From Planctomycetaceae bacterium (lineage in GTDB: Bacteria; Planctomycetota; Planctomycetia; Pirellulales; PALSA-1355), in the NCBI GenBank assembly GCA_003153375.1, contig PLYM01000254.1, forward strand, positions 1 through 38,104: a DNA stretch of 38,104 nt, read 5' to 3'. Shown piece by piece: positions 13,369 to 38,104 of this stretch (positions are counted from its first letter, which is position 1; each line of letters opens with the position of its first letter). A model generated the notes under the pieces. It was not told the DNA's origin and made no database searches. It saw only the letters and a list, made by a program, of their open reading frames with translations. The translations under genes and the position numbers were made by a program.

Positions 13369-14199
13369 ATGAATCGAATTCAAAGCCTCGTCAACGACGC
13401 CTTGGGCACAGTCACGAAGTCTTCGAAGCCCAAGGCCGCCAACGGCTTTGACGCACGGGAAGATGGCCAGCCCCTGGGTGTTTGCGAGTCGCTTCAAGGC
13501 ATGTTCGAATCGACGGGTGAAGTCGAGGATGCGCATTGCATCTTCACTCCCCTGCACTACGAACGAAACTATGCTTATCCGTTGATCGTGTGGTTACACG
13601 GTCCGGATGACGACGAGCGGCAGGTGACGCGGATCATGCCGCTGGTGAGCATGCGCAACTATGTGGGCGTGGGCCCGCGGGGTACGCTGGCCTCGACGCA
13701 AGTGGCCGGCGGCTATAGCTGGTCGCAAGGTCAGCGGCATATCGTGGCGGCCGAGCAGCGCGTGCTGTCGGCCGTGGCCGCCGCGCGGCGCTGGCTGAAT
13801 GTCGCTCCTTCGCGCATCTATCTGGCCGGCTATCAGGGTGGCGGCACGATGGCGTTCCGCATCGCGCTCAATCACCCGCAACTGTTTGCCGGCGTGCTGT
13901 CGATCGGCGGCGGCTTTCCGTCGACGTTGTGTCCGTTGGGCCAATTGCACGCTGCCCGCAGTCTGCGAACGTTCCTGGCGATCGGCAAGGAGAGCAAGCT
14001 CTATCCCGAGCCGCAAGTCTGCGACGACCTGCGGCTGTTTCATGCCGCCGGCATGTCGCTCAATCTGCGGGTCTATCCGTGTGCCGACGAGGTGCTGAGC
14101 AACATGCTCTCGGACATGGACCGCTGGATCATGGAGCAAGTGGCTCCCTGCGAACCGGTGGAACAGGACCAGCCCGACTATCGCCTTCGCGGCAAGTAA
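13369..14199 (+). CDS. Alpha/beta-hydrolase-like pseudoenzyme (phospholipase/carboxylesterase fold)
   Basis: The 276-aa protein has the core pattern of the phospholipase/carboxylesterase family: PLIVWLHG (oxyanion loop), a long helix, then RIYLAGYQGGGTMAFRIALNHP at the nucleophile elbow, FAGVLSIGGGFP, and a C-terminal MLSDMDRWIMEQV. The elbow should read G-x-S-x-G but is G-Y-Q-G-G, with Gln156 at the Ser position. Near the end PCADEVLSNML stands where active members have a catalytic His. Two of three catalytic residues thus appear lost, and binding or scaffolding is more likely than hydrolysis (inference). No signal peptide is seen. It is the first gene ahead of the kinase-like gene and fliE. 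Confidence 0.8.
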   Translation: MNRIQSLVNDALGTVTKSSKPKAANGFDAREDGQPLGVCESLQGMFESTGEVEDAHCIFTPLHYERNYAYPLIVWLHGPDDDERQVTRIMPLVSMRNYVGVGPRGTLASTQVAGGYSWSQGQRHIVAAEQRVLSAVAAARRWLNVAPSRIYLAGYQGGGTMAFRIALNHPQLFAGVLSIGGGFPSTLCPLGQLHAARSLRTFLAIGKESKLYPEPQVCDDLRLFHAAGMSLNLRVYPCADEVLSNMLSDMDRWIMEQVAPCEPVEQDQPDYRLRGK

Positions 14200-14247
14200 G
14201 CGGCGCCTTCGCGGCAAGTAAGCGGCGCCTTCGCGGCAAGTAGGGGC
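14182..14247 (+). repeat. Three tandem 22-bp copies spanning the gene's stop codon
   Basis: The unit beginning CGCCTTCGCGGCAAGTAA occurs at 14182-14203, 14204-14225 and, diverging at its end, 14226-14247. A fourth, decayed piece follows. The first copy encodes the last codons and the TAA of the hydrolase-like gene, so each copy repeats the C-terminal codons plus a stop. Confidence 0.85.
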
Positions 14248-14487
14248 GTCTCGGCGGCAAGTCAGCGGCATCTCAAGCCTCTGGTGCGCCTGGCCGCGCT
14301 TCGCGGGTGCTGCCATCGGGGGCAATTCGACCTGCGCGGAGCCTGTCTGGGCTATCGCCGGGTGCCCGACCGCGAACGCGCATTGACCGCGTGGGGCGTT
14401 TCCAGTACAAACCCCGCCGCTTATCCCGGCGCGCAGGGCCGAGTCGCCCTGCGCGGTTATCCTTCGAAAACTCTCCTGAGACGACGC

Positions 14488-15291
14488 ATGGATCAGCCCG
14501 ACATCTTTCAAGATCCACTTTCGCTCGCGCACTCCGAGATGGACGACATGGCGGCCGAGCAGGGCGAGGGTTTGCACCTCGCGCAGCTGACGCCGTCGAG
14601 CCGCGAGCAGGAGCGGAAGAATCGCTGGGCCGAGTTGGGTCGGATTTCGTCGCGCGTGGCTCGCGAAGTGCGCGACAACCTCGGCCCCGTCACGCTCTAC
14701 CTCAGCCTGCTGCGCCGCCGCATGTCGGACGACTCGGGCAGCATCGACATTCTGGACAAGATCACGCCCGCCATCGCCGCGATCGAAGCCACGCTGGGCG
14801 ATCTGATGAATCTCACGTCGGAGCGCGATCCGAAGCTGCAGTGGGTCAACGTGCGCGGCGTGATCGACGAGGTTTACGCCTCGTTGGCTCCGCAACTGGC
14901 GGCGCAAGAGGTGGAAACCGTCACCGACGTGCCGCGTCACTTGGGCATCCTGGTCGACGCCATCCTGCTGCGCTCGGCGATCGTCAATCTGGTGCTCAAT
15001 GCGCTCGAGGCCATGCCCGATGGTGGCCGTCTGGTCGTCACCTCCTACACCGGGCGGGGCGGATTGGAATTGGAAGTGGCCGATAGCGGCCCCGGCTTGA
15101 GCGACGACGTGCGCAGTCACGCCTTCGAGCCGTTCTTCTCGACCAAAAACGGCGGCGTGGGCCTGGGCCTGGCCGTCGTGCACCGCGTGGCGCAAATGCA
15201 CGGCGGCAGCGTCGTGGCGATGAACTGTCCGGAAGGTGGCGCCGCCTTCACGCTCCGCTTTCCGCAACGCGCCTCGCAAGCCGCCGCTTGA
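14488..15291 (+). CDS. Histidine-kinase-like ATPase with Arg at the phospho-acceptor site
   Basis: The protein is 267 aa from ATG 14488; upstream sequence in the same frame looks non-coding. It has an N-terminal HisKA-type helix pair and then a complete GHKL ATPase domain: N box NLVLNALEAMPDGG, G1 VADSGPGL, F box FEPFFSTKNGG, G2 VGLGLAVVHRVAQMHGG. This layout resembles NtrB/FlrB kinases that control flagellar genes. The H box reads VAREVRDNLGPV, so Arg59 stands where the phosphorylated His should be. There is no sensor or membrane segment. It lies 80 bases upstream of fliE. It may act as an allosteric or phosphatase-type regulator rather than an autokinase (inference). Confidence 0.8.
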   Translation: MDQPDIFQDPLSLAHSEMDDMAAEQGEGLHLAQLTPSSREQERKNRWAELGRISSRVAREVRDNLGPVTLYLSLLRRRMSDDSGSIDILDKITPAIAAIEATLGDLMNLTSERDPKLQWVNVRGVIDEVYASLAPQLAAQEVETVTDVPRHLGILVDAILLRSAIVNLVLNALEAMPDGGRLVVTSYTGRGGLELEVADSGPGLSDDVRSHAFEPFFSTKNGGVGLGLAVVHRVAQMHGGSVVAMNCPEGGAAFTLRFPQRASQAAA

Positions 15292-15371: not shown

Positions 15372-15683
15372 ATGCAACCGATCCAAGGCTTGGGGCCGCT
15401 GGTGCCCGTGCAGATGATCTCGGCCTCGAGCCCACGGGCAATCGCGGCCGAGACGAACGTCGCGGGTCCGTCGTTCAAGGAAATGCTGCTCAACTCGCTC
15501 CAACGCGCCGCCAGCATCGAACAGCAAGGTCAGCAAACGGCAGCGACGAGTGGCGGCCATACGACCCCTTCGCTCGCGGCCCAGACGGCGATCGATCGAG
15601 CCCAGGCGGCCGTACACACGGCCACGCAAGTGCGCGACGCCCTGTTGGGGGCCTATAACGAAATCAAGGATTTGCGGATTTAG
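15372..15683 (+). CDS. fliE: Flagellar hook-basal body protein FliE
   Basis: FliE links the MS ring to the rod and is the first export substrate. This 103-aa protein has the family's layout: a variable N-terminus, then FKEMLLNSLQ and two amphipathic helices ending in ATQVRDALLGAYNEIKDLRI. The usual C-terminal 'MRMQV' ending is changed to KDLRI. It is followed by fliF after 67 bases. The flgB and flgC genes that usually precede fliE are not here; the kinase-like gene is in that place. Confidence 0.88.
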   Translation: MQPIQGLGPLVPVQMISASSPRAIAAETNVAGPSFKEMLLNSLQRAASIEQQGQQTAATSGGHTTPSLAAQTAIDRAQAAVHTATQVRDALLGAYNEIKDLRI

Positions 15684-15750: not shown

Positions 15751-17220
15751 ATGGATTATCTCCAAAAGGCCATCGGCCAGCTGATCGAGTTGCTCAAGGC
15801 GATGCCCGCCGGCATGCGGGCAACCGTGGGCCTGCTCGTGGTCGTGGCCCTGGTGAGCGCGGCTTATCTGGGCAACGAGCAGCTCGCGGGCAGCGACGCC
15901 TATCTGATGGACGGCGAAACGTTTTCGGCCAGTCAGTTGCACGCCATGCACGCGGCGCTGGGCAAAGCCAATCTGGAAGCGAGCATCGACGGCGCTCGCA
16001 TCAAGGTCTCGCGCGGGCAGGAATCGAAGTGCATGGCCGCGTTGGCCGAGGCCGGCGCGCTGCCGGTCGAGTTTGGCGGCTATCTGGAAAAGGCGGTGAA
16101 CTCGAGCGGCTTCATGACGCTCAATCGCAATCAGGAAGCGGCCATGCGGATTGCCAAGCAGCGCGAGTTGCAAAACATCATCAACACGATGGTCGACAAG
16201 TCGCTGGTGTTGATCGACGAGCAGTCGGACCACGGCTTTCCGCCCAAGAAGATCATCACCGCCTCGGTCAGCATCCAGCCGCGCGGCCAGCAACCGCTGG
16301 ACGAGAACCGCATTCCGGCCGCCATTCGCAACCTGGTCGCTAGCTCGGTGGCGGGCTTGAAGCCCGAAGCGGTCACGGTGGTCGATTTGAGCACCCAGCG
16401 CACGTATCCAGGCGCCAGCAGCGGCGACAGCCACGGGCCGCTCGCGCTGGGTGAGTATGCGGAGCTGAAACGTTACTATGAGCGGGAGTATCAGGAAAAG
16501 ATCAGCCGCGCGCTGGCGCCGCACGTCGCGGGGGCGCTGGTGACGACGAGCGTGGAACTCGACGCTGAAGCGGCCACGCCCAGCGGAACGGGTGATGCCG
16601 CGCCGCGGCCGTTGGCACAGGCGGGTCGGTCGCCCAAGCGGGTGGCCGTTTCGATCGCCGTGCCGCACGCCTACTACGAACAAATCTGGCGCCAGTCGCG
16701 CCCCTCGTCGACAGCCGACAGCGTTCGCAAGTCCGACGCCGCCGTGCTGAGCGGAATCATCGCGACCGAGAAGCAGAAGATCGAAGCCCTGGTGACTTCG
16801 CTGCTACCGAATCGCGAGGCCGCTGGCGCCGGCTCTCAGGTCATGGTTTCGACGTTCTATCCGGTCGCTGAATTGCCGCCGCCCGAAATCGCGCCCAGCG
16901 AGCAGGCTTGGGCGTGGCTGAGCGAGCATGGCAAGACATTGGGCCTGGTGGGGCTGGGGCTCGTGGGATTATTGGCGGTCCGCAGCCTGGTGCGTTCCAC
17001 CGGGCGCTCCGCGGCCGTATCAACGCACGACGCCGACACGGGCCTGGGGCTCTCAGGCGATCAAGCACTTGCCAAGTCGGCACCCAACGTCGCGCACGAC
17101 GCCGCGCGGCATCGCGCCCCGCTGAGTCCCATGTTGCGTGGAGATCTGGCTGACATCGTGCGCGACGACCCCGAGGCGGCGGTGACGATCTTGCGAACTT
17201 GGATCGGCAATGCCGGCTAA
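15751..17220 (+). CDS. fliF: Flagellar MS-ring protein FliF
   Basis: FliF forms the MS ring in the inner membrane on which the rotor and export gate assemble. The 489-aa protein has a first membrane helix (about residues 23-41, ATVGLLVVVALVSAAYLG). The periplasmic ring-building motifs include ESKCMAALAEAGALPVEFGGYLEKAV and RQ-type LVASSVAGLKPEAVTVVD. A second helix lies near residues 395-418. The cytoplasmic end DDPEAAVTILRTWIG matches the FliG-binding segment. It is somewhat shorter than the usual 530-560 aa. Its stop overlaps the fliG start by 11 bases. Confidence 0.93.
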   Translation: MDYLQKAIGQLIELLKAMPAGMRATVGLLVVVALVSAAYLGNEQLAGSDAYLMDGETFSASQLHAMHAALGKANLEASIDGARIKVSRGQESKCMAALAEAGALPVEFGGYLEKAVNSSGFMTLNRNQEAAMRIAKQRELQNIINTMVDKSLVLIDEQSDHGFPPKKIITASVSIQPRGQQPLDENRIPAAIRNLVASSVAGLKPEAVTVVDLSTQRTYPGASSGDSHGPLALGEYAELKRYYEREYQEKISRALAPHVAGALVTTSVELDAEAATPSGTGDAAPRPLAQAGRSPKRVAVSIAVPHAYYEQIWRQSRPSSTADSVRKSDAAVLSGIIATEKQKIEALVTSLLPNREAAGAGSQVMVSTFYPVAELPPPEIAPSEQAWAWLSEHGKTLGLVGLGLVGLLAVRSLVRSTGRSAAVSTHDADTGLGLSGDQALAKSAPNVAHDAARHRAPLSPMLRGDLADIVRDDPEAAVTILRTWIGNAG

Positions 17221-18232
17221 CGCCATGAGAAAGAAACATCGCAATCTGCGCAAGGCGGCCATTCTGTTGGCCAGTCTCGAGGCCGACCATGCCGAGTCGC
17301 TGCTCGCGCAAATGGCGCCGGCGCAGGCCGAGGCATTGCGCCAGGCCGTGGCTCGACTGACCGACATCGATCCGCAAGAGCAGGACGACGTGATCGAGGA
17401 GTTCTTTCGCATCGGCCCCTTGGTGCCCGACAAGCACTGCTCGGGCCTGGAATTGGACGACCATCTGCCGTCGCAACTGTCGGTGGTCGAGTCCGCCGAC
17501 GAGGCGCCCAGCGCGCTGGCAAGTCCGGCGGCGCCGTTTCATTGTTTGCATGCCGCGCCGGTCCGCTCGCTGTCGCCGTTTTTGGAGCGCGAGCATCCGC
17601 GGACGATCGCGGTGGTGGCCTCGCATTTGCCCGCCGAGCGCGCCGCCGAACTGTTGGCCGGACTGCCGGCCGAATTGCAGATCGAAGTTGCCCGCCGGCT
17701 GGTGGACCTGGAAGAGACCGATCCGGAGATACTCCGCGAAGTCGAGCGAGGGCTCGAATCGTGGTTGGGCGAACAGCTGCGCGGAGACCGTCGCCGGGCC
17801 GCCGGCATCGCGGCACTGAACAACATTCTGGGCGCTGCCAGTCCCGGCACGAAACAGCACATTCTGGCCAACCTCACCCGGCACGATCGGCAACTGGCCG
17901 GCCAGCTCAAGGTTCCCTTGCAGCCGGCGCTCACGTTTGCCGAGTTGGAACGGCTCGATGCCGCGTCGCTGACCGTCGTGCTACACCATGCCCCGGGTGA
18001 ATTGCTGGTGCTGGCGCTGGCCGGCGCGTCGCACGAGTTCGCCGAACGGGTTTTTGAATTGTTTCCGCCGGCCGAAGTGCGAGCCTTGCGATCGGCCTTG
18101 CGCCACTTGGGCCCTACGCGGCTCAGCGACGTCGAAGACGCGAAGCACGAGCTCACCGAATTGGCGCGGCAGTTGGAGCTGCGCGGCGAAATCATGCCCG
18201 ACGTTCGCGGTCGATTGAGCGTGGCCGTCTAG
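17210..18232 (+). CDS. fliG: Flagellar rotor/switch protein FliG, divergent
   Basis: FliG joins the MS ring to the C ring and normally receives torque from the stator. The 340-aa protein has all regions: N-terminal RKAAILLASLEADHAESLLAQM, middle-domain FLEREHPRTIAVVASHL (the EHPQ motif as EHPR, residues 128-131), and C-terminal GPTRLSDVEDAKHELTELARQLELRGEI. Aligned by eye to the torque helix of other FliG proteins, the conserved charges are replaced: Lys by Ala271, Arg by Ala288, the Asp pair by Ser295-Ala296. The start may be ATG 17210 (overlapping fliF) or ATG 17225. Stator coupling may therefore be altered (inference). Confidence 0.9.
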   Translation: MPANAMRKKHRNLRKAAILLASLEADHAESLLAQMAPAQAEALRQAVARLTDIDPQEQDDVIEEFFRIGPLVPDKHCSGLELDDHLPSQLSVVESADEAPSALASPAAPFHCLHAAPVRSLSPFLEREHPRTIAVVASHLPAERAAELLAGLPAELQIEVARRLVDLEETDPEILREVERGLESWLGEQLRGDRRRAAGIAALNNILGAASPGTKQHILANLTRHDRQLAGQLKVPLQPALTFAELERLDAASLTVVLHHAPGELLVLALAGASHEFAERVFELFPPAEVRALRSALRHLGPTRLSDVEDAKHELTELARQLELRGEIMPDVRGRLSVAV

Positions 18233-18311: not shown

Positions 18312-18965
18312 ATGGCGACCATCATCAAGGGCACGTCCACGCCGCGGGCTGCCGACGGCGCGCTGTTTCACCTCGACGATCTGGGCGATCGGGCCAAGGA
18401 GTATCTGGAACAGGTGCGGCACCAGGCCGCCGAGATCGTGGCCCAGGCCCAGCAGGAAGCCGTCGAGATTCGCCGCCGGGCCGAGGAAGAGGGCCGTGCC
18501 GCGGCGCTCGAAGCGGCCGAGACGGTGCTCGACGAAAAAGTGACCCGGCAGCTGGGCTCGCTGTTGCCGGCCTTGCGTGATGCGATCGACGCGATTTGCC
18601 GGGCGAAGGCCGAATGGATCGCGCATTGGGAGCGCTCGGCCGTACACGTCGCGGCGGCCATCGCTGGACGCATCGTGCGTCGCGAAGTCGAGCGCGCTCC
18701 GGAAATCACGATCACGCTGGTCAAGGAAGCGCTCGAGCTGGCGTCGGGCAGCAGCGAGATTCAACTGCGTTTGCACCCCGATGACGTCGCCGCGCTGGGC
18801 GGACAGATCTCGCGATTGGCCGAGGAATTGGTGCGGCTCGGCAATCCCCAGATCGTGCCCGATGCGACGATCGAAAAGGGTTCCTGCCGCGTCGAGACCC
18901 GCTTCGGCACGATCGATCAGCAGTTTGCCGCACAATTGGCCCGCATCGAACAAGAATTGACCTAA
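18312..18965 (+). CDS. fliH: Flagellar export ATPase regulator FliH
   Basis: FliH is the peripheral stalk that holds FliI at the export gate. The 217-aa protein has a coiled-coil N-terminal half rich in A/E/R with spaced glycines and glutamates (about residues 25-75). Its C-terminal V/FliH domain, AAAIAGRIVRREVERAPEITITLVKEAL, ends GSCRVETRFGTIDQQFAAQLARIEQEL. GGGAG lies just before ATG 18312. It sits in its usual place between fliG and fliI. Confidence 0.92.
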   Translation: MATIIKGTSTPRAADGALFHLDDLGDRAKEYLEQVRHQAAEIVAQAQQEAVEIRRRAEEEGRAAALEAAETVLDEKVTRQLGSLLPALRDAIDAICRAKAEWIAHWERSAVHVAAAIAGRIVRREVERAPEITITLVKEALELASGSSEIQLRLHPDDVAALGGQISRLAEELVRLGNPQIVPDATIEKGSCRVETRFGTIDQQFAAQLARIEQELT

Positions 18966-18981: not shown

Positions 18982-20304
18982 ATGCAAACATTGACCGACA
19001 TGACCGATCAGATCCGGCAGACGATGCCGACGGCCATCCGCGGCAGCATCGTGCGCACCGTGGGCAGCACGGCCTCGGTGGCCGATTTTCCCGCACCGGT
19101 TGGGGCCCTGGTCGAGATCGAACGGCAGGGGAGCGAGCCCGCGCTGGCGGAAGTCATCGGGTTTCGCGATCAACTGACGCTGGTCTATCTGCTCCATAGC
19201 GTGAATGGCCTGAGGCACGGGAACCGGGTGCGGCTGGTGCGGACGTCGCGTTGGATTCGTGTGGGCGACGAGTTGCTGGGCCGCGTGATCAACGCCCAGG
19301 CCGAGCCGATCGACGGGCGGCCCCGGCCCGTGCTGCACGAGCGGGTGCCCTTGGATCGAGCACCGCTGTCGGCGATCGAACGGCCCCGCATCGATACGCC
19401 GTTGTCGACGGGCATTCGCGCGATCGACGGCCTGTTGAGTTGCGGCAAGGGGCAGCGGATTGGCATCTTTGCTGGCTCGGGCGTCGGCAAGAGCGTGACC
19501 TTGGGAATGATGTCGCGCTATACCACGGCAGACGTGAACGTCGTGGCGCTGATTGGCGAGCGCGGCCGCGAAGTGAATGAATTCATCCAGCGCGACCTGG
19601 GGCCGGCCCTCGACAAGACCGTGGTCGTCGTGGCCACGAGCGATGAGCCGGCGCTGGCGCGCGTGCAGGCGGCCTTCACCGCCACGGCCGTGGCCGAATA
19701 CTTTCGCGACCTGGGACGCGACGTGCTGCTAGTCATGGACTCGCTGACGCGGCTGGCGCTGGCTCAACGCGAAATCGGACTGGCCGCCGGAGAACCACCG
19801 ACCACGCGCGGCTTTCCGCCTTCGGTGTTCAGCCAACTTCCCAGACTATTGGAGCGAGCGGGCTGCAGTCCGCGCGGCAGCATCACGGGGTTCTACTCGG
19901 TGCTGGTCGAGGGCGATGACCCGAACGAGCCGATTTCCGACACCGTTCGCGGCTTGCTCGACGGTCATATCTGGCTGGCCCGCAAGTTGGCCGCGCGGGG
20001 CCATTATCCGGCGATCGACGTGCTCGAGAGCGTCAGCCGGCTGATGACCGAAGTGGCCGACGACGAGCATCGCGCCGCCGCCCAGCGCGTGCGTGAATTG
20101 TTGAGCGTGTATCGCGAGCACGAGGATTTGATCTCGATCGGCGCCTATCGTCGCGGCGCCAATCCCTCGGTCGATCTGGCGATTGAGCAGTTGGGGCCGA
20201 TCAACGATTTTCTGCGTCAGCGGGTCGACGAGCGTTCGAGCGTCGCAGAGGCTCGCGAACAGTTGATGGGCTTGTGCCAGCAGGCCCAACGGCAAACGAG
20301 CTGA
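18982..20304 (+). CDS. fliI: Flagellum-specific export ATPase FliI
   Basis: FliI is the hexameric ATPase that unfolds and delivers export substrates at the base of the apparatus. At 440 aa it has full length. The Walker A motif GSGVGKS is at about residues 167-173, followed by GERGREVNEF, the Walker B LLVMDSLTRLALAQREIGL near residue 250, the conserved GEPPTTRGFPPSVFSQLPRLLERAG block, and LVEGDDPNEPISDTVRGLLDGHI. All catalytic motifs look intact. It starts 17 bases after fliH with AGGG upstream. Confidence 0.97.
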   Translation: MQTLTDMTDQIRQTMPTAIRGSIVRTVGSTASVADFPAPVGALVEIERQGSEPALAEVIGFRDQLTLVYLLHSVNGLRHGNRVRLVRTSRWIRVGDELLGRVINAQAEPIDGRPRPVLHERVPLDRAPLSAIERPRIDTPLSTGIRAIDGLLSCGKGQRIGIFAGSGVGKSVTLGMMSRYTTADVNVVALIGERGREVNEFIQRDLGPALDKTVVVVATSDEPALARVQAAFTATAVAEYFRDLGRDVLLVMDSLTRLALAQREIGLAAGEPPTTRGFPPSVFSQLPRLLERAGCSPRGSITGFYSVLVEGDDPNEPISDTVRGLLDGHIWLARKLAARGHYPAIDVLESVSRLMTEVADDEHRAAAQRVRELLSVYREHEDLISIGAYRRGANPSVDLAIEQLGPINDFLRQRVDERSSVAEAREQLMGLCQQAQRQTS

Positions 20305-20327: not shown

Positions 20328-20786
20328 ATGCCACGGTTTGAATTTCGCCTGCGATCGCTGTTGGCCGTGCGCGAAGCGGAGCGGGCCGCCGCGCGCACGC
20401 ACCTGGCCGCCGCGCAGGTCGAACTCGAGGAGCTCGTTGCCACCCGCGCCCTTCGTCAGCGAGGGCTGGACGAGCAACGTTCCTGGCTGCGCAATCGGGC
20501 CGCGCCCGGCCAGATCGATCCCCAGCGCCTCGCCGCCGCCAGTCGTTACGAGCGCGTGTTGCTCCACGAGCTGGAAGCACTCTTCGCCCAGCAGCAAGCG
20601 CTCGAAGTCGAGACGGAACGCCGCCGTGCCTTCGTCGTCGAAGCCGACCGCGAAGTGCGCGTGTTGGAGAAACTGCGCGAGCGGAAATTCGAGCAGTATC
20701 AGCGCGACCAAGCGCTCGCCGAAGTGAAACGCTTCGACGAAGTGGCCAGTCAGGCGAGGATTCGAGCCGCGGACGAAATGGTGTGA
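20328..20786 (+). CDS. fliJ: Flagellar export chaperone FliJ
   Basis: FliJ is the central stalk of the FliI hexamer and couples it to FlhA. The 152-aa protein is an almost continuous coiled coil, opening FEFRLRSLLAVREAERAAARTHLAAAQVELEEL. This matches the family's start 'F.F.L..LL..RE'. It closes with RDQALAEVKRFDEVA. It is the last gene of the first flagellar block, 23 bases after fliI, and faces the convergent OmpA-type gene. Confidence 0.88.
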   Translation: MPRFEFRLRSLLAVREAERAAARTHLAAAQVELEELVATRALRQRGLDEQRSWLRNRAAPGQIDPQRLAAASRYERVLLHELEALFAQQQALEVETERRRAFVVEADREVRVLEKLRERKFEQYQRDQALAEVKRFDEVASQARIRAADEMV

Positions 20787-20847
20787 CGAATGCCTCGTTC
20801 CTTCCTCGCATGCGAGAGCTTCTGTACCAGCTTCTCGCGCCTTCGTT

Positions 20848-20866
20848 TGTGGGCCAACGGCCCACA
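20848..20866. terminator. Hairpin between convergent fliJ and lipoprotein genes
   Basis: TGTGGGCC and GGCCCACA pair perfectly around AAC. There is no T-run, but the position midway between two convergent stops fits a shared terminator. Confidence 0.45.
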
Positions 20867-20889
20867 GGTTCGATGGGCCGTCGGCACAT

Positions 20890-21654
20890 TTAACGATACA
20901 CGCTGCCGTTGGCCCCGGCGTCGTTCCAGCCGACGACGGGGGTTTCGGGGCCGAGCAGGAAGATTTCGACGCGGCGATTCTTTTGACGGGCTTGGGCGGT
21001 GTCGTTGGGCGAGACGGGTTGATACTGGCCAAAGCCGGTGACGCCCATCCGCGATTCGGGGATGCCCGCTTTGCGCAGGCGGTCGGCCACGGCCAGCGCG
21101 CGGCCGGCGCTCAAGTGCCAGTTGTTCGGATAGCGTTGCCGCACTTCGCGACCCTTGATGCCCAGGGCATCGGCGTGGCCCACCACCATGATCTTCAAGT
21201 CGCGGGCTTCGGGCGACTGAAAGATGTCGGCAAACTCGCGCAGGATGCGATCGGCGCCGGGCTTCAGCTCGGCATCGCCGCTGTCGAACAGCAAATCGGT
21301 GTCGAGCTTACTGACGCCGGTCTTGGCGTCATATTGCAACACCGGAAAACGCTCGGCCAGATCGGCCAGGCGTCCGCTCAAGCCTTCAGGCAATCGGCCG
21401 CGAGCCAGCTTCTGCCGACCGCCGGCGCCCTCGGCGCGGGCCAGGTCTTCCTCGGCCTTGATCAGTTGATCCTCGACGTGGTGCGTGTGGACCTTCAGAT
21501 TCTCGATCTCGGCCAGTTGCGCCTGCGTCTGCTCGGTGAGCGACCGGTTCTGCGATTGCAGCGCCGAGAATTTGGTCTGAGAGACCGTCTTGCACCCGCA
21601 AGCGGCCAGCGCGGTCACTGCCAAGAGGACCAGCGTATGACGGGTAGCAGCCAT
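20890..21654 (-). CDS. OmpA/MotB-type peptidoglycan-binding lipoprotein
   Basis: The protein is 254 aa from ATG 21654, which follows AAGGAG by 8 bases. The lipobox LAAC puts the lipid on Cys19, implying a mature outer-membrane lipoprotein. Residues about 25-75 are a coiled coil. The C-terminal OmpA domain shows LDTDLLFDSGDAELKPGADRIL, then VVGHADALG, NWHLSAGRALAVADRL, RMGVTGFGQYQPV and KNRRVEIFLL. These are the elements that bind the meso-diaminopimelate of peptidoglycan. It has no N-terminal membrane Asp, so it is not a MotB stator. It is transcribed against the flagellar genes and probably serves envelope anchoring. Confidence 0.9.
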   Translation of the reverse strand: MAATRHTLVLLAVTALAACGCKTVSQTKFSALQSQNRSLTEQTQAQLAEIENLKVHTHHVEDQLIKAEEDLARAEGAGGRQKLARGRLPEGLSGRLADLAERFPVLQYDAKTGVSKLDTDLLFDSGDAELKPGADRILREFADIFQSPEARDLKIMVVGHADALGIKGREVRQRYPNNWHLSAGRALAVADRLRKAGIPESRMGVTGFGQYQPVSPNDTAQARQKNRRVEIFLLGPETPVVGWNDAGANGSVYR

Positions 21655-21746
21655 CGATTCGACTCCTTTCGAATCAACCTTCAATCGGTCGTTTAGTTTT
21701 TCCGGCTTCCTGCCGCCGGCAGCTCGCGCCAAAAATCGGCCGCGCG

Positions 21747-23138: not shown

Positions 23139-23165
23139 CACGGGTGGTTATCTCTGGAGGCCGAT

Positions 23166-23510: not shown

Positions 23511-23561
23511 AAGTAAATCCTTTGCACTTAAGAGCATGGCGGAAAAACGGGGCACAAATCC

Positions 23562-23589
23562 ATTCTAAAAGCCCCGCATTCCAATTCAA
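23562..23589 (-). promoter_or_regulatory. Candidate promoter of the secreted-protein/HTH genes
   Basis: On the minus strand, TTGAAT (23589-23584) is followed after 16 bases by TAGAAT (23567-23562), about 50 bases before ATG 23510. Confidence 0.45.
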
Positions 23590-24986: not shown

Positions 24987-24992
24987 ACGACA

Positions 24993-27813: not shown

Positions 27814-27828
27814 CCCTGGATCGCTCGC

Positions 27829-29686: not shown

Positions 29687-29751
29687 ATCACCGTCGGCCA
29701 ACGGGCCGGAGCCTTTCAAGACAATTTCCCGTTATTACCAAGAGGCCAATC

Positions 29752-30798
29752 ATGGCACGTTCGATTCAAGTGAGCCGGCTGCCCGGGCTGTGGACCATTC
29801 CCGCGGCCTGCTGCATCCTGGCCTTCGGCCATTTCGCCGCACGGGCCGACTATCCCGACTACGCCCCCGCTCCGCCGGCCGCTGCCGACCGCGAGCAGCA
29901 GCCCGCGGCCTATGCCGACGAGCAAACGCCCAGCGGCCCCGCCGACTTGCGCGAGCCGGTCGACCGCTACCCTCGGGCACAGATTCAGTTGCCCAACGAG
30001 CTGCGACCGCACGTGCAACCGCGCGTACAGGTGCCGCCGATGAACGCCACGCTCCCCAGCGCGCCGCCCGCGACGACAGCGCCACCAACCGCGGCCGAAA
30101 ACTCCATCAGCCCGCGTCCTCTGCCGGTCCGCTTTCAACCGGTTGATTACCAGGCGCCCGTCACGGCGCAGCCGACCGGCGAAACGGAGCAACCCTCCGA
30201 TCCGCAAGTTGCCACGGAGATTCCGCCCGCCGCCCAGTTGAATGGAACGCCCACGAGTCCGCAGATCATCGAGAACGCACTCGAACCGCAGCCGGCGATT
30301 CCGTTGGTTCCGCAGTTACCCCCCGCACGCTCAGGCTTTCGCGGCAGCGACTTGCCGCCGTGGGCTGCCGGCGCCGGCAGCCTGGGAATCGTGCTGGGCT
30401 TGTTCCTGGTGTTGGCCTGGGTGATGCGTCGCGGCATGCCCAAGAACGTCACCTTGCTGCCGCGCGAGGCGGTCGAGGTGCTGGGGCGAGCACCGCTCGT
30501 CGGTCGCGAGCACGTTTACCTGGTCCGCTGCGCCAACAAGATGCTGCTGGTTTCGCACTCGGCTGGCAAGTTGGAAACGCTGACCGAAATCACCGACGCC
30601 GCCGAGGTCGATCGGTTGGCCGGCATGTGCCAGCAAATGAATCCGCACAGCGTCACGGCCTCCTTCCGCCAGGTGTTTCAACAGTTCGGCAACACGCCCG
30701 CCGTGCGAGGCTATCCGGCCCGTCGGCCGGCCGACGAGATGGAATTCTCTGACATGGAAGACGTCGGCAACTATTCGATGCGGGAGATGCGCAGCTGA
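29752..30798 (+). CDS. fliO: Flagellar biosynthesis protein FliO with extended periplasmic part
   Basis: FliO helps assemble the FliP ring of the export gate. ATG 29752 follows AGAGG by about 7 bases, giving 348 aa. An N-terminal signal-like helix ([19 protein letters not shown]) is followed by about 170 residues of Pro/Ala/Gln-rich sequence. A membrane helix (about 207-226, [19 protein letters not shown]) and the FliO domain come next, with [45 protein letters not shown]. It is much longer than typical FliO (100-200 aa) because of the disordered linker. It ends one base before fliP starts. Confidence 0.88.
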
Positions 30799-30799
30799 G

Positions 30800-31786
30800 A
30801 TGAACGTTTCTCGGGCTGACGAATTCGCACCGGCTGACTCCGCACGCCCCATCGTGTGGCAGGACGATCGCTCCGCGCCCACGCCCCGGGGCGGCCCACG
30901 GCCGGCCGGCTTGCGGCGCGTGGCCCTGCTGGCGACGATGGCCCTGATGCTCAGCCTGCTGGCGGCGCCCTGGGCGCTGGCCGACAACTCGGTCGGCACG
31001 ATTCCGCCAATCACCAATGCCTCACCGGTCACGACTGCGTCTCCGGTCACCCCGGCCCCCCCCACCGCCAATGCCCCGCCGATCGAACTGCCCGGCGGAC
31101 TGGGCAATCCCGAACGTTGGACGAGTCCCGAGGGTCTCTCGTCAGCGCTCGAGGTCATGCTGCTGCTGACCGTGATCAGCCTGGCGCCTGCGGTGCTGAT
31201 GATGACGACCTGCTTCGTGCGGATCGTGGTCGTGTTGGGCCTGTTGCGTCAGGCTTTGGGCACGCAGCAGTTGCCACCCAGCCAGGTGATGACTTCGATC
31301 GCACTGTTCATGACGCTGTTCATCATGTCGCCTGTCTGGACGCGAGTTTATTCGGATGCCATCAAGCCCTACACCGCCCACGAGATGTCGCTCGAGCAGG
31401 CCTGGGATTCCGGCGTCAAGCCCGTGCGGCAGTTCATGAGCGCTCAGATTAACCGCACCGGCAACAGCAACGACGTGTGGCTGTTCTACAAGTATCTGCC
31501 CAAGGACACTCCGGCGCCGAACAGCTATGACGACGTGCCGCTGCAAGTGCTGCTGCCGGCGTTCATGCTGAGCGAATTGAAGACGTCGTTCCTGATCGGC
31601 TTTCAGATTTATCTGCCGTTTTTAATCGTCGACCTGGTGATCGCCAGCGTCACGATTTCGATGGGCATGCTGATGCTGCCGCCGGTGCTAATCTCGCTCC
31701 CCTTCAAATTGCTGTTGTTCGTGCTCGTCGACGGCTGGCACCTGGTGGTCGGCATGCTGATGGATAGTTTTCAAACGTTCTCCTGA
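30800..31786 (+). CDS. fliP: Flagellar export gate protein FliP
   Basis: FliP forms the core pentameric ring of the export gate. The 328-aa protein has an added basic N-terminal tail and a signal-like helix ([21 protein letters not shown]). The canonical core includes [78 protein letters not shown], and the end [24 protein letters not shown] 30800 follows the fliO stop by one base, so translation is coupled. Confidence 0.97.
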
Positions 31787-31788: not shown

Positions 31789-32091
31789 ATGGCGTCCAAA
31801 GAAACCCTTGCGCGCATCGCTCACATGAATCCACAAGAAGCCGTTGACCTGGGACGCGAAGCCTTGCAGATGGCACTGGTGATCGGCGCGCCCGTCTTGA
31901 TCTCAGGCCTGGTCGTGGGCCTGGCCGTGGGGCTGTTGCAGGCGATCACGCAGGTGCAGGAGCAGACCGTTTCGTTCGTGCCCAAGCTCGTGGCCATGGT
32001 GTTGGTCGTGAGCCTGATGTTGCCGTGGCTGATCGGTCAGATGGTCAGCTATGCGCACGATTTGATCACCAACATTCCCAACACGTTGTAA
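31789..32091 (+). CDS. fliQ: Flagellar export gate protein FliQ
   Basis: FliQ is a two-helix subunit wrapped around the FliP-FliR gate. The core MNPQEAVDLGREALQMALVIGAPVLISG and LLQAITQVQEQTVSFVPKLVAMVLV is canonical. The ATG at 31789 is 2 bases after the fliP stop and gives 100 aa. An ATG at 31828 gives 87 aa and matches the normal family start (MxPExV), so the true start may be either. Confidence 0.95.
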   Translation: MASKETLARIAHMNPQEAVDLGREALQMALVIGAPVLISGLVVGLAVGLLQAITQVQEQTVSFVPKLVAMVLVVSLMLPWLIGQMVSYAHDLITNIPNTL

Positions 32092-32103: not shown

Positions 32104-32877
32104 GTGGATAGCGCGTTCGCCGTTCAGCACCTGCTCACCTTCGTGCTCGTTGCCACGCGCGTTTCGACGCTGGTGGCGATCGCTCCGATCTTTGGCCCGG
32201 CCTCGGTGCCGCTGCGCGTCCGCGGTCTGGTGGCCGTGGCCCTGTCGCTGTTGATCGCGCCGTTGGAGTTCGCCCACAGTTCGCCGCGGCCGGCCAATTT
32301 GATCGACTTTTTGGTGCTGATCGGTGCCGAAGCCCTGGTCGGACTGACGCTGGGGCTGGGGATCCTGATCTTGTTTTCGTCCATGCAGGTCGCCGGGCAA
32401 ATCATCAGCCAGATGAGCGGTCTGCAACTGGCCGACGCCTACGACCCCGGCTTCGACGCCAGCGTTCCGGTCCTGTCGCAACTGATGTTTTATGTGGCGC
32501 TGGCCGTATTCGTCATCATCGGCGGGCATCGACTGGTGATGGAGGCCTTGCTCGATACCTTCGTCTGTCTGCCGGCAGGTCACGCCAGCGCTTCACCAGG
32601 AGTGCTGGCCGCGATGACGGGGCTCTTGGCCGAAAGTTTCATCTTGGGAATCCGCGCCGCGGCGCCCGTCATGGTGGCCCTGCTGTTGGCCACGCTGATC
32701 GTGGGCCTGGTAGGACGCACCCTGCCGCAGTTGAATGTAATGGCGCTGGGTTTCAGCGTCGGCGCGCTGGTCCTGATCGTCACCCTGAGCGTCTCACTCG
32801 GCGCCGCCGCCTGGATCTTTCAGGCCCAAGTCGACCCCGTTCTGCAAACCGTCATGGCGGCGCTGAAACCGCAATAA
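32104..32877 (+). CDS. fliR: Flagellar export gate protein FliR
   Basis: FliR completes the export gate. The 257-aa protein has about six hydrophobic helices and family segments including RVSTLVAIAPIFGPASVPLRVRGLVAVALS, LGILILFSSMQVAGQIISQMSGLQLADAYDP and NVMALGFSVGALVL. The start is GTG 32104, preceded by GGAG 7 bases upstream; no ATG fits. It lies 12 bases after fliQ and 44 bases before flhB. Confidence 0.96.
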   Translation: MDSAFAVQHLLTFVLVATRVSTLVAIAPIFGPASVPLRVRGLVAVALSLLIAPLEFAHSSPRPANLIDFLVLIGAEALVGLTLGLGILILFSSMQVAGQIISQMSGLQLADAYDPGFDASVPVLSQLMFYVALAVFVIIGGHRLVMEALLDTFVCLPAGHASASPGVLAAMTGLLAESFILGIRAAAPVMVALLLATLIVGLVGRTLPQLNVMALGFSVGALVLIVTLSVSLGAAAWIFQAQVDPVLQTVMAALKPQ

Positions 32878-32921: not shown

Positions 32922-34013
32922 ATGGCTGAATACGACGGCGACAAATCACTCGACCCCACGCCGCACCGCCGCCAACTGGCGCGCGAGGCCGGCCAGGTCG
33001 CGCGCAGCCAGGATCTGAGCTCGGCCGGCCTTCTGCTGGGCGGGCTCGTGGTGTTGTTCTTCACCGGTGGGGCACTTCTCGATTTTCTGATCGGCCTGTT
33101 GACGGGTTACCTGGGCGGCAGCTCGTGGATGTCGGGCACCGAAGCGGGCCAGGGCATGTCGCTCGAGGCGATCGCCGGCCAGTGGAACAGCCTGATGACG
33201 GGCCTGGCCAAGGTTCTCCTGCCTCTCATCGCGCTGGTCACGCTGCTCTCGATAGTCGTGAATGTGGCGCAAACCGGGCTGCTCTTCCTGCCGGGCAAAT
33301 TGGCGCCCGACTTTTCGCGCGTCAATCCGCTTAGCGGCTGGGGTCGTATTTTTTCGATGTCCGGCGGGGCGCGGCTGGGATTCGGTCTGATCAAGGTCGC
33401 CGTGATCGGCCTGGTGGCGCTCGCGAGCTTGTACGACCGCCGCGAGGAATTGATGTCGCTCTCGGCGCTCGACCTGCCGCAAATTGCCGCGTTTGCCTGG
33501 CAGATTTGCCTGGGCACCTGCGTCAGAATTGGACTGGCCCTGTTGGCCTTGGCCGTGATCGACTATGGCTACCAACGCTTCCGCCACGAGCGGGAGCTGA
33601 AGATGACGCCGCAGGAAATGCGCGAAGAACTGCGCAACATGCAGGGCGATCCACAAGTCGCCGCGCGACGGCGCACGGTGCAGGCCCAACTGGCCTTGGG
33701 CCAGTTATCGCACACGGTGCCGAAGGCCGACGTGGTGATCGCCAACTCTGCCGGAGTGGCCGTGGCTCTGCAATTCGACGCCGAGACAATGCGGGCCCCG
33801 ATTGTCGTCGCCCGCGGCAACGGTGTCATTGCCCAACGCATTCGCCTGCTGGCCGTCGATCACGCGATCACCGTGGTCGAGAAGGACGAGCTGGCCCAAG
33901 CCCTGTTCGACGAAGTGGCGTACAACCGCCCGATTCCCGATCGGCTGTTCGCGCCCGTGGCCGAGGTGCTGGCCTACGTCTATCAGCTCAAGAGCAAGCC
34001 CTTGGCGGCGTAA
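32922..34013 (+). CDS. flhB: Flagellar export switch protein FlhB without the autocleavage motif
   Basis: FlhB controls which substrates are exported, normally by self-cleavage between Asn and Pro in an NPTH loop. The 363-aa protein has the N-terminal 'LDPTPHRRQLAREAGQVARSQDL' region (in two runs), four membrane helices, and the linker RFRHERELKMTPQEMREELRNMQGDPQVAARRR. The C-terminal domain includes LLAVDHAITVVEKDELAQALF. At the cleavage site the sequence is VVIANSAGVAVALQF, with Asn275-Ser-Ala-Gly where NPTH is expected; Asn275 aligns with Asn269 of E. coli. Pro, Thr and His are all missing, so classic cleavage is unlikely. It is the last gene of the block. Confidence 0.95.
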   Translation: MAEYDGDKSLDPTPHRRQLAREAGQVARSQDLSSAGLLLGGLVVLFFTGGALLDFLIGLLTGYLGGSSWMSGTEAGQGMSLEAIAGQWNSLMTGLAKVLLPLIALVTLLSIVVNVAQTGLLFLPGKLAPDFSRVNPLSGWGRIFSMSGGARLGFGLIKVAVIGLVALASLYDRREELMSLSALDLPQIAAFAWQICLGTCVRIGLALLALAVIDYGYQRFRHERELKMTPQEMREELRNMQGDPQVAARRRTVQAQLALGQLSHTVPKADVVIANSAGVAVALQFDAETMRAPIVVARGNGVIAQRIRLLAVDHAITVVEKDELAQALFDEVAYNRPIPDRLFAPVAEVLAYVYQLKSKPLAA

Positions 34014-34017: not shown

Positions 34018-34040
34018 AGCCGCGCTGTCGCTTCGCGGCT
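34018..34040. terminator. Hairpin between convergent flhB and sulfotransferase genes
   Basis: AGCCGCG and CGCGGCT pair around CTGTCGCTT in the 26-base gap between two convergent stops. The right arm touches the sulfotransferase stop. No T-run is present. Confidence 0.45.
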
Positions 34041-35200
34041 CAACCCGCGGCGGCCACTGGCTTGGGCTGGCAGTAGCCGTACTTGCGCATGTACGGTCCC
34101 CAGCGGCGATCGATCTCATCGCGCAGGCTGTCGGGAATCTGGTACGTGCCCGCCCGATAGTCTTCCTGATCCTTGAAGTATGCGTTCAGCTTGGGCAGCA
34201 CGGTCTCGAATTCGCCCAGCTCCAGGTGATCGTAGAGCTTGCGCATGTGCTCGATCGGGCTACCGACAAAATCCTCGTAGCGCACTTCGAAGAACCGCGA
34301 GGGATCGATCAACAAGCGGTCGCGTTCAAAGCTTTCATACATCCGCTCGAAATTCGAAAAGACGTACTCCTCGAGCCCCTGATGGTTGGGCTCCTGCACC
34401 GCCTGGAACTTATAGAGCGTCTTCCACAGCTTGACGGTCGACCCATAGAGCGGATAAGGATCGCGCACGATGTGTACGAACCGTGCGTCGGGAAACAACT
34501 CCAACAGCGTTTTGATCCGTCCCGTGTGCGGGGGCGATTTCAGAATGATGCGCTTCGCGTCGCGCATCGTGACGCGTTTCAGAAACCATTCCAGCCCGGC
34601 CTTCCAGCGGTCGACTTCCTGCGGCGACAGCCCCTCGAGTGTTAGATACTCGGGATACTGAGGCGGCTCGTTCGGAAACGCCATCGTCAGATACGGCGAC
34701 GGCAGGCCCATGTTGCACAGCGCGAACTCGTCTTCCTGGGGCCGATCCCAGCCGGTGAGCATGTTGTCCATCGGCCGCTTGGCCGGCAGCAGGAACTTGA
34801 ACTTGGTGACCAGCCAGGCGCTCATCAACGCATGGTTCGGCGCCAGGCACTCATAGGTCGTGGGAAACGTATAGCGCCCGTCGAGCACCATCAGCTCGTG
34901 CAGCAAGGTTGTGCCCGAGCGCCAGTGTCCGATGATGAAAATCGGCGCGTCCTTGATCTGAGTGCGATCGAGATAGCGGCGATAGAGGTATTCCTGCAAC
35001 GGCCGCAACGCGGAGTTGAGCACCGCAGCGCAGGAGATCGTGAATGCCAGCGGCCAGCGCGTCAGGCTGATCCGCGCGCCGTTGCGGCGCACCAGCGCCA
35101 GCCACGAACCGAACAACATGCCGTGCCAGAACCGGGCGACCCAGAAATGATACGGATTGACTTCGACCGGCTTGGGTTTCGACGGCGCCCCTGTTCCCAT
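34040..35200 (-). CDS. PAPS-dependent sulfotransferase
   Basis: The 386-aa protein has the 5'-phosphosulfate motif GHWRSGTTLLHELM (about residues 95-108), the 3'-phosphate motif FVHIVRDPYPLYGSTVKLW, and PTTYECLAPNHALMSAWL between them. These identify a sulfotransferase family member that moves sulfate from PAPS to an unknown acceptor. A hydrophobic/amphipathic N-terminal part (FWVARFWHGMLFGSWLALV) may associate with the membrane. ATG 35200 follows GGAG by 8 bases; an in-frame TTG at 35221 is less likely. Planctomycetes have many such genes, often linked to sulfated polymers or lipids. There is no evident link to the flagellar genes. Confidence 0.88.
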   Translation of the reverse strand: MGTGAPSKPKPVEVNPYHFWVARFWHGMLFGSWLALVRRNGARISLTRWPLAFTISCAAVLNSALRPLQEYLYRRYLDRTQIKDAPIFIIGHWRSGTTLLHELMVLDGRYTFPTTYECLAPNHALMSAWLVTKFKFLLPAKRPMDNMLTGWDRPQEDEFALCNMGLPSPYLTMAFPNEPPQYPEYLTLEGLSPQEVDRWKAGLEWFLKRVTMRDAKRIILKSPPHTGRIKTLLELFPDARFVHIVRDPYPLYGSTVKLWKTLYKFQAVQEPNHQGLEEYVFSNFERMYESFERDRLLIDPSRFFEVRYEDFVGSPIEHMRKLYDHLELGEFETVLPKLNAYFKDQEDYRAGTYQIPDSLRDEIDRRWGPYMRKYGYCQPKPVAAAG

Positions 35201-35283
35201 CGTGGCGGCTCCGGTTAACAAGATCGCGGCGAGTCGATCGGCCAGAACACGATCTCTGGCACGGTTCGACCGTCCATCGCACA

Positions 35284-36423: not shown

Positions 36424-37377
36424 ATGAACATTCACCCTGCCAGCACGCGTTTCACGGCCCGATGGTCCTGCTGGGCCCTCCTAGTCTTGATGTCATTTTC
36501 CGCTCTGCCTGCGCGCGCCGAGACGCTGTTGCGCTGGAAGTTCGTACCGCAAGACATCTCGAATTTCACCTTCTCGACTTCCATGCAGCAGGACACCAAG
36601 CTCGAAGACATGAAACTCAAGACGATCGCCGAGCAGGTGCTGGAGACTACGTGGATCATTGGCGACGTCGATGCCGACGGCACCGCCAACATGACGCAGA
36701 CGATCAAGCGGCTGCGGATGGACGTGAAAACCTGGCAGAACGATGTGCTGGGGCAAGCAATCAAACTCGATTCGGCCTCCAAGGAGCAACCCACCGGGCT
36801 GAACGCGGTGCTGGCTCCCATGATCATGAGCCTGGTCAACAAGCCGATTTCGCTGCGGGTGACGCCCTTGGGCAAGATCGTCGAATTCAAGTTGTCCGAC
36901 GAACTGATCGAGGCCCTGAGCACATCGCCCAACGGCGCCAAGATGGGCGGCATCTTTACTCCCGAGGGGCTCAAACAGATGCTCTCGCAAAGCATGCTGA
37001 AGTTTCCCGAAAAGCCGCTCGCCAAGGGAGATTCGTGGAACACGGCGCTCGACGTCGACCAGCAGGACGTCGGCAAGCAAAGCGTCGCCACCACCTACAC
37101 CTATCAGGGCATCGACACGATCGGCGAGCGACCGACTGACGTCATCGATATGAAGCAGGAGTCGAAGATCCAACCCGCCAAGGACGCCACCGGCTCGATC
37201 GAACTCAAGGACCAGAAGAGCTCGGGTGTGATCCACTTCGACAACGCGCGCGGCGCATTGATCGACAGCGAATCATCGACCACGATGAGAATGAAAATGT
37301 CGATGATGGGCCGCACGCTCGACCAGGACATCACGATCAAGACCTCGATGAAGCGCAAGACGGCTGACGCTCGCTAG
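36424..37377 (+). CDS. Secreted protein of unknown function (possibly DUF6263 family)
   Basis: The 317-aa protein has a signal peptide ending at SALPARAE. A mature beta-rich domain starts LLRWKFVPQDISNFTFSTSMQQDTKL, includes RVTPLGKIVEFKLSDELIEAL and ELKDQKSSGVIHFDNARGALIDSE, and ends with a basic Lys-rich tail. The pattern of a lipocalin-like 'RWKF..G....F....' protein with repeated strands is widespread in planctomycetes and may correspond to DUF6263, which I cannot confirm. GAGG lies 10 bases before ATG 36424. No enzyme motif is seen; an envelope or outer-membrane role is likely. flhA follows after about 300 bases. Confidence 0.75.
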   Translation: MNIHPASTRFTARWSCWALLVLMSFSALPARAETLLRWKFVPQDISNFTFSTSMQQDTKLEDMKLKTIAEQVLETTWIIGDVDADGTANMTQTIKRLRMDVKTWQNDVLGQAIKLDSASKEQPTGLNAVLAPMIMSLVNKPISLRVTPLGKIVEFKLSDELIEALSTSPNGAKMGGIFTPEGLKQMLSQSMLKFPEKPLAKGDSWNTALDVDQQDVGKQSVATTYTYQGIDTIGERPTDVIDMKQESKIQPAKDATGSIELKDQKSSGVIHFDNARGALIDSESSTTMRMKMSMMGRTLDQDITIKTSMKRKTADAR

Positions 37378-37679
37378 CGGCTGCCGGCCGGCCTGGCATC
37401 AGACCGCGTTGCCAGCAGAGCCATGACAGCACGCCGGCTCCTCGATCGGCGCATCGCTAGGGCGACTGGCGCGGCATGCCATGTCGGCGTGTCCTTTCCT
37501 GCCTGCTGGCAGCGCAAAGATCGCCAGCACAATTCCTTGCGATCGCGCTGCAGCCGCTCTCTTTGAGGCCGCGCGAAACCCGTCTGGACACTCCTTGCGC
37601 TTTGCTGTAATTTCCGCCCCTCACTTCTGCCAGTTGTCTCGTCGTTCTGACACCGTTTAAACCCGCGAGAAACACTGCC
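37378..37679. other. Spacer upstream of flhA
   Basis: These 302 bases contain no gene. A possible promoter, TGGACA (37585-37590), 15 bases, TGTAAT (37606-37611), has good hexamers but a short spacer. No ribosome site stands out before flhA. Confidence 0.45.
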
Positions 37680-38104
37680 ATGGCAACCGCCGCCATGCCA
37701 CGCGTCGCTTCGCCGTTTGCCCGGCTGCAAGACCTGATCTTGCCCGTTGGGTTGATGGCCAGCGTGCTGGTGATTCTCGTGCCGATGCCGGCGCCCGTGA
37801 TGGACGTGTTGCTGGCATCGAACATCGCGATCGCGGTGATCATCCTGCTGACGACCATCTACGTTCGCACGCCGCTGGAGTTCAGCATTTTTCCGTCGCT
37901 TCTGCTGGCCACGACCCTGGCGCGGCTGGTGCTGAACGTGGCGACGACGCGGCTGATTCTGACACAGGCCCAGGCCAAAGGCATGCTAGCGGCCGGCGGC
38001 GTCGTGAAGAGTTTTGGCGAGTTCGTAACCGGCGACAAGATCGTGGTCGGCGTGGTCATCTTTCTCATTATCGTCGTGATTCAGTTCGTCGTGATCACCA
38101 AGGG
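37680..38104 (+). CDS. flhA: Flagellar export gate protein FlhA, 5' part only
   Basis: FlhA is the nonameric gate that engages chaperone-substrate complexes and uses the proton gradient. Only 141 codons are in the window. The membrane part is canonical: FARLQDLILPVGLMASVLVILVPMP, MDVLLASNIAIAVIILLTTIYVRTPLEFSIFPSLLLATTLARLVLNVATTRLIL, and VVGVVIFLIIVVIQFVVITK at the edge. The gene is separated from flhB by three non-flagellar genes. ATG 37680 fits the family start. Confidence 0.96.
   Translation, partial: MATAAMPRVASPFARLQDLILPVGLMASVLVILVPMPAPVMDVLLASNIAIAVIILLTTIYVRTPLEFSIFPSLLLATTLARLVLNVATTRLILTQAQAKGMLAAGGVVKSFGEFVTGDKIVVGVVIFLIIVVIQFVVITK

Follow-up and report, generated by a model that had tools for sequence, protein, structure and literature searches.

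Several bacteria are known to keep flagellar export genes without building a flagellum. Buchnera aphidicola retains genes of the flagellar basal body and export apparatus, for which no secreted protein is reported to have been identified (PMC8109811). In non-flagellated Lysobacter enzymogenes, the retained flagellar export genes are reported to export heterologous flagellin and to affect twitching (PMC7277350). In addition, the non-flagellar type III secretion systems, including an early Myxococcus group, derive from the flagellar export apparatus (PMC3459982), and a FliO has been described in the non-flagellated Chlamydiia, where the section concerned names no other member of its operon and the main text contains no mention of planctomycetes (PMC12248157). 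In this study, we describe a cluster of flagellar-type export genes in a planctomycete of the order Pirellulales. The window, by which we mean the whole stretch of 38,104 nucleotides that was analysed, comprises positions 1-38104 of a contig of 59,217 bases (C92), and the genome to which it belongs (G000) is a 6.7 Mb draft in 291 contigs with a completeness of 96%. We consider it likely, with a probability of about 0.82, that the cluster encodes a type III export apparatus of the flagellar kind, retained after the loss of the flagellum, that has its cargo switch disabled and that would still export protein.

The closest counterpart of the window is the bacterial flagellum itself, which it resembles in gene order and in sequence. 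Its FlhB scored 299 bits against the flagellar model TIGR00328 (cut-off 349) and 229 bits against the SctU model TIGR01404 (cut-off 358), which is below both cut-offs and closer to the flagellar form. It differs from the flagellum in that neither flagellin nor rod/hook proteins nor MotB were found in the genome and in that the cleavage motif of FlhB is lost. The likeness to Buchnera lies in the retained basal body and export genes (PMC8109811); however, Buchnera is an intracellular symbiont with a genome of 600 kb, whereas the present case concerns many lineages with genomes of ~2-9 Mb, in which no rod proteins were found, the switch appears disabled and the series ends without an ATPase match. 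Lysobacter is likewise non-flagellated with its flagellar export genes kept (PMC7277350), but it represents one strain with FliI, whereas our case is a graded series over an order with truncation of FlhB and loss of the ATPase match. As in these two filament-less systems, the window carries export genes and its genome yielded no flagellin. In contrast to the non-flagellar type III systems (PMC3459982), the present case retains FliG, FliM, FliN, FlhF and FliA, and its FlhB resembles the flagellar form rather than the SctU type. Apparently new are the graded series within one order, its tie to the loss of FlhB cleavage, and an endpoint without an ATPase match kept by a whole family; none of these was found among the best 15-25 of up to 420 matches in searches of the open-access literature on flagellar loss or Planctomycetes, which is weak evidence of absence.

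Genes of the cluster and flagellar parts missing from the genome

The genes fliE-J, fliN-R and flhB lie on the + strand at 15372-34013, with all Pfam matches above the cut-off. The features of the window are as follows.

13369..14199, + strand: alpha/beta-hydrolase-like protein without the Ser nucleophile, probably a passenger (esterase match weak, below cut-off)
14284..15291, + strand: NtrB-like histidine kinase that retains its ATP-binding motifs but not the phospho-acceptor His (HATPase_c 7e-22)
15372..15683, + strand: fliE (PF02049 9e-10)
15751..17220, + strand: fliF, MS ring (PF01514 3e-17)
17210..18232, + strand: fliG, C-ring (FliG_N, _M and _C above cut-off)
18312..18965, + strand: fliH (PF02108 4e-21)
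18982..20304, + strand: fliI, ATPase, GERGR segment kept (PF00006 1e-85, PF18269 2e-26)
20328..20786, + strand: fliJ (PF02050 9e-07, barely above cut-off)
20787..29149, no strand assigned: 8.4 kb insert with an OmpA-family protein, a helix-turn-helix protein, QueC, PTPS/QueD and two coiled-coil TolR-like proteins (Pfam)
29150..29686, + strand: fliN (PF01052 5e-24)
29611..30798, + strand: fliO, start uncertain (PF04347 9e-11)
30800..31786, + strand: fliP (PF00813 8e-76)
31789..32091, + strand: fliQ (PF01313 4e-27)
32104..32877, + strand: fliR (PF01311 6e-52)
32922..34013, + strand: flhB, full length, NSAG in place of NPTE/NPTH (PF01312 1e-99)
34040..35221, - strand: sulfotransferase (PF13469 1.5e-34), which adjoins flhB in many relatives too
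37680..38104, + strand: flhA, first part, continuing beyond the window (PF00771)

A preliminary description of the window regarded all basal body and gate genes as complete in length. Pfam confirms the presence of fliE-J, fliN-R and flhB. The flhA gene runs out of the window and its second half lies in another frame; the break coincides with two N's in the assembly (contig position ~38768), and no second flhA copy was found in the genome. Beyond the window, flhA is followed by flhF (TIGR03499), a MinD/ParA-type ATPase gene in the flhG position and a sigma factor gene of the FliA/WhiG family (TIGR02479, above cut-off), and fliM is located on a separate contig (C81:169158); in the flagellated relative G019, too, it is not part of the main cluster. 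The MS ring, C-ring, ATPase and export gate components of the bacterial flagellum are all present, namely FliF, FliG, FliN, FliM, FliI, FliOPQR, FlhB and FlhA.

The remainder of the flagellum was sought with profiles for flagellin (PF00669), Flg_bb_rod (PF00460) and MotB_plug (PF13677), which were run on 39 related whole genomes including the four of the window's family (G000-G003), one of the other three being 100% complete. All three profiles gave zero matches in these four genomes, while they were positive in 26/39, 27/39 and 26/39 genomes, respectively; MotA was not searched. The 12 genomes without a rod match were also those without flagellin and MotB matches, and the sole further misses were flagellin in G015, where rods and MotB are present, and MotB in G030, a genome of 81% completeness. 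FliM was found in 9 of the 12 rod-less genomes, the others (G005, G010 and G027) being also without an ATPase match.

What is missing can be located by comparison with the flagellin-positive G019, whose locus reads FlgN-like, kinase, NtrC-type regulator, flgB, flgC, fliE-J, unnamed gene, fliK, flgD, flgE, motA, motB, fliL, fliN-R, flhB, sulfotransferase, flhA, flhF, flhG and fliA (flgB is named by position, since it and the unnamed gene had no Pfam match among the genes scanned there). In the window's locus, the FlgN-like gene, the regulator and both flgB and flgC are gone, as are all genes from the unnamed one through fliL, and the rest is retained, with the 8.4 kb insert occupying the slot held in G019 by fliK-flgD-flgE-motA-motB-fliL. 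The genes motA, fliL, fliK and flgD are absent at this locus and were not searched genome-wide. Thus, the preliminary description was right that motA and fliL are missing locally, and the lack of filament, rod/hook and motB genes extends to the whole genome, whereas fliM, which it also listed as missing, is present.

The FlhB switch and graded reduction across the Pirellulales

The textbook cleavage motif of FlhB is NPTH, and NPTE is the lineage variant of the flagellated Pirellulales. The relatives with flagellar genes, G015 included, read NPTE in 24/25 cases and NPTH in 1/25 (FlhB L012-L041), against NSAG in the window, which agrees with the earlier proposal that this FlhB cannot cleave as usual. 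Full-length FlhB from five flagellin-less genomes reads NSAG (the window), NPAE, NQAE, DAEG and GPSG, and in 24 further flagellin-less genomes the protein ends soon past the last membrane helix and a linker, without a switch domain. In total, the motif is lost or the domain deleted in 29/31 flagellin-less genomes read, G015 and G108 being the exceptions. The FlhA segment MDGASKFVRGD, by contrast, is kept in the window and in most relatives; in the family labelled f8 (family labels of this kind are codes of the analysis), it shows the mostly conservative changes K to R and D to E, with one extra change in G027. In Salmonella, this charged segment is tied to proton-driven export. For FliI, only GERGR was scored, since the Walker A pattern that we used matched no FliI, flagellated or not.

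Retention of FlhA without a flagellin match recurs across the order. Of 216 sampled Pirellulales genomes, 208 have a match for FlhA, 124 for flagellin and 161 for the C-terminal domain of the type III ATPase (PF18269). Of the 92 genomes without a flagellin match, 88 keep FlhA, and 49 of those 88 are also without a type III ATPase match; among flagellin-less genomes of good quality (completeness >=90%, contamination <=5%), FlhA is kept in 64/65. FliP was present in 42/45 flagellin-less genomes tested (the misses being G133, G140 and G148). Family f8 presents the extreme, with FlhA in 39/40 members (31/31 of those of good quality) and a flagellin or ATPase match in 0/40. One genus can hold both flagellin-less and flagellated members, as do G020 and G036, and nine of the order's family groups contain similar cases, the window's own counted and the doubtful f7 and f13 left out. 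Accordingly, the machine probably has another job in many Pirellulales that lack a flagellum.

The gene maps fall into three types: that of the window, with C-ring, ATPase, full FlhB and FlhF; one with shortened FlhB and an ATPase match (G002, G003, G023 and G008); and a minimal one (f8 and G005). The 15 gate loci of f8 contain FliP, FliQ, FliR and FlhB in 15/15, FliF in 14/15, the kinase remnant in 13/15 and a separate FliO in 7/15, while FliE, FliG, FliH, FliI, FliJ, FliN, FlhF and FlhG appear in 0/15 (for FliG, FliH, FliJ and FliN, the zeros apply to the loci read and not to whole f8 genomes). FlhB is membrane-only in the f8 loci read, and in the eight f8 genomes read FlhA and FliA stand at a locus separate from the gate. 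In G005 (L047:15329-17224), FliF is fused to the FliG middle domain, the C-terminal FliG match being below cut-off, and G099 has a FliF-FliO fusion (L101:10742-13114); both fused fliF genes retain open frames. Thus, one order holds a series from the full flagellum to an export machine with C-ring and ATPase, to the same machine without the FlhB switch domain, and to gate and ring only, and several of these reduction steps seem to have occurred more than once.

These genes are under constraint. According to the Nei-Gojobori method applied to close pairs, the ratio of nonsynonymous to synonymous substitution rates (dN/dS) was 0.05-0.49 in the genes that encode the gate, ring, ATPase and C-ring vs 0.05-0.17 for the neighbouring malate dehydrogenase gene mdh; dS was often near 1, and the values therefore show constraint only. 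A tree of FliP, FliQ, FliR and FlhB from 56 genomes requires at least four changes between the flagellated and the non-flagellated state, and four are still needed in a reduced tree (six long or gappy rows dropped, G108 unscored, G015 absent), although the long branches (G167, G175 and G008) and the unlike letter make-up render this count rough. A single clade of the 26 flagellin-less rows was rejected by the approximately unbiased test (p-AU 4.8e-6).

Three separate observations concern individual genomes. The shortened FlhB frame of G127 continues into a TPR-like protein (L098 ~11381-13132), and a TPR-repeat protein lies near flhB in G041. In the complete genome G008, a second open reading frame consists of the FlhA C-terminal part only (L121:8990-10920; PF00771 positions 314-655) and stands shortly 3' of a small FlgM-like frame, a weak match below the Pfam cut-off.

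Proposed export function and its alternatives

If the retained proteins assemble as in a flagellum, FliF would form an inner-membrane ring, FliP, FliQ, FliR, FlhB and FlhA would constitute the export gate within it, and cargo would be brought to the gate by FliH, FliI and FliJ together with the C-ring proteins FliG, FliM and FliN, in the manner of injectisome sorting platforms. Without rod, hook and filament there would be no tube, so cargo would exit into the periplasm, and without MotB there would be no rotation. The switch from early to late cargo would be off, through loss of the motif in the window and of the entire switch domain in the more reduced relatives, and judging from the sequences the machine is most likely a retained protein exporter of the inner membrane that handles a single class of cargo. 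Further reduction would strip the ATPase, the C-ring, FlhF and FlhG and leave a proton-driven gate in a FliF ring. Export of this kind is plausible because Salmonella can assemble flagella without ATPase activity if the proton motive force and the levels of substrate are increased (PMC4230889). The earlier suggestion of a flagellum-derived secretion or surface apparatus agrees with the genome-wide absences, the nine family groups and the changes in FlhB; secretion itself is a prediction.

Several observations weigh against this interpretation. Release into the periplasm is an assumption, the genome-wide searches for missing parts having covered flagellin, rod/hook proteins and MotB. The gate and ring genes are mostly less constrained than mdh, with dN/dS of 0.35-0.49 for fliF, fliO, fliJ and fliN between G000 and G001, and the cluster is interrupted by the 8.4 kb insert; faster evolution and an insert would fit relaxed constraint or decay. 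No FlhB was recognised in the flagellin-less loci of G113 and G167. Moreover, of the two genomes that are flagellin-less by search and keep NPTE, G015 retains rod, hook and stator genes and the contig of G108 ends at fliO, so some of the 92 are probably flagellated, their flagellin having escaped the search.

The preliminary description allowed for an ordinary, diverged flagellum with its other genes elsewhere, to which we would add genes that were missed. Although FliM does lie elsewhere, rod and FliM genes are scattered in flagellated relatives and the assembly is a 291-contig draft, we regard this explanation as very improbable, because flagellin, rod/hook and MotB models gave no match in all four genomes of the family, the complete one among them, the zeros coincide on the same 12 of 39 genomes save G015 and G030, and FlhB reads NSAG. 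A dying remnant, in which non-motile lineages shed their flagellar genes and the export genes have not yet gone, would account for the insert, for dN/dS above that of mdh in most export genes and for the graded loss across lineages. It is nevertheless unlikely given dN/dS well below 1 for gate and ATPase, FlhA in 88/92 flagellin-less genomes with f8 complete among those of good quality, and fused FliF frames that stay open; furthermore, the gate genes outlast the others in the lineages read, which random decay does not predict.

The gate might also be kept for a task other than export, such as a membrane scaffold, a mark of polarity together with FlhF and FlhG, or the modulation of pili as reported for Lysobacter. 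We give this some weight, while doubting it: the window's lineage has retained FlhF together with an FlhG-like gene, but neither was seen in the f8 loci, where the channel proteins FliP, FliQ and FliR are universal and the charged segment of FlhA is largely kept. A single ancestral non-flagellar derivative spread by horizontal transfer could explain why G005, G008, G023, G128/G183 and G113/G180 stand apart from their family mates in the gate tree. This history appears improbable in view of the rejected single clade and of the placement among flagellates of the window's family and of G020 with G036 of the same genus. In addition, the gate is found together with mdh and the kinase remnant in 13/15 f8 loci and in G005 (they were not seen in G041 and G010, where the gate is near a contig end), and long branches make the remaining placements unreliable.

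For an export apparatus retained after flagellum loss, the best lead to a cargo is FlgM. A small protein with the FlgM anti-sigma-28 domain lies beside flhA-fliA in 8/8 f8 FlhA loci read and in G005; it is above the Pfam cut-off in G027 and G005 and passes the NCBI equivalog model in G005, and in the flagellated G019 FlgM is found ~5 kb from fliA. A further point against the export reading belongs here: next to fliA, no FlgM was detected at 16 further loci, including those of the window, G001, G002 and G003, nor was it found in the parts of the window's genome that were examined, and no whole-genome search for it was made. A sigma-28 consensus gave nothing informative upstream of flagellins or gate genes. 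It is possible, if on balance unlikely, that the lasting job of the gate is regulatory, that is, that it exports FlgM and thereby sets the activity of FliA (sigma-28), as a flagellar checkpoint freed from the flagellum. If so, f8 would possess a type III protein valve for signalling, consisting of FliF, FliPQR, optionally FliO, membrane-only FlhB and FlhA and driven by the proton motive force alone, without ATPase, C-ring or substrate switch, and this would account for the FlhA-FliA-FlgM linkage and for the repeated loss of the flagellum with the gate kept.

The reuse of complex machines is usually argued from single cases, and here one order provides a graded series. Two matters become testable: whether a type III gate works in nature without an ATPase, and whether in Pirellulales the gate serves a purpose independent of the flagellum. 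Because flagellar export genes can be kept without a flagellum, flagellar genes in planctomycete genomes should not on their own be considered proof of motility.

The insert, the pseudo-hydrolase and the kinase

The insert sets the window apart from five relatives, the fliJ-fliN gap being 106-419 bp in G001, G002, G003, G020 and G021 vs 8.4 kb here. Two of its products (25537-28806) are coiled-coil proteins with a single N-terminal membrane-like segment, one of them glycine-rich, and neither has a Pfam domain above cut-off. They had been described as TolR/MotB-like proteins in the fliL/fliM position; they match no MotB or ExbD model, no TolQ/MotA-like partner was seen nearby, and they lie among unrelated content in an insert not found in the fliJ-fliN gap of these relatives, and we therefore reject them as a replacement for the stator. 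We likewise reject the lost torque charges of FliG as a sign of repurposing, since relatives with rod genes have, as judged by eye, a similar sequence at the positions of the E. coli charges.

A scan of named genomes with the pseudo-hydrolase that adjoins the cluster yielded 279 relatives, of which the best 80 were retained; cultured ones among these, such as Blastopirellula marina, are members of the Pirellulales, and on this basis we assign the window to that order. The Ser nucleophile of the hydrolase-like protein is indeed absent, as the preliminary description stated, but its absence in 104/104 homologues (a few genomes counted twice), flagellated genomes included, deprives it of value as evidence for repurposing. 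In several named genomes, its homologue adjoins mdh with no flagellar gene nearby. The idea of a conserved gate subunit is weakened accordingly, as the protein tracks mdh even away from gate genes; often found beside malate dehydrogenase in Pirellulales, it is a conserved pseudo-enzyme.

The local kinase was correctly described as lacking a catalytic residue. The motif AHE[VL]RN is intact in 29/29 readable kinases from flgB/flgC loci (an alignment of 30 rows with one cut off and two genomes present twice), whereas the window reads AREVRD, in which Arg replaces the phospho-acceptor His that G001 retains. In f8, the His segment is gone or unrecognisable, and what is left is an ATP-binding half whose motifs have decayed, together with a C-terminal tail that is conserved around CPEGG. 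The predicted structure of one reduced kinase, from G107, has a mean predicted local distance difference test score (pLDDT) of 77, and its top PDB matches are mostly histidine kinases (E ~1e-11).

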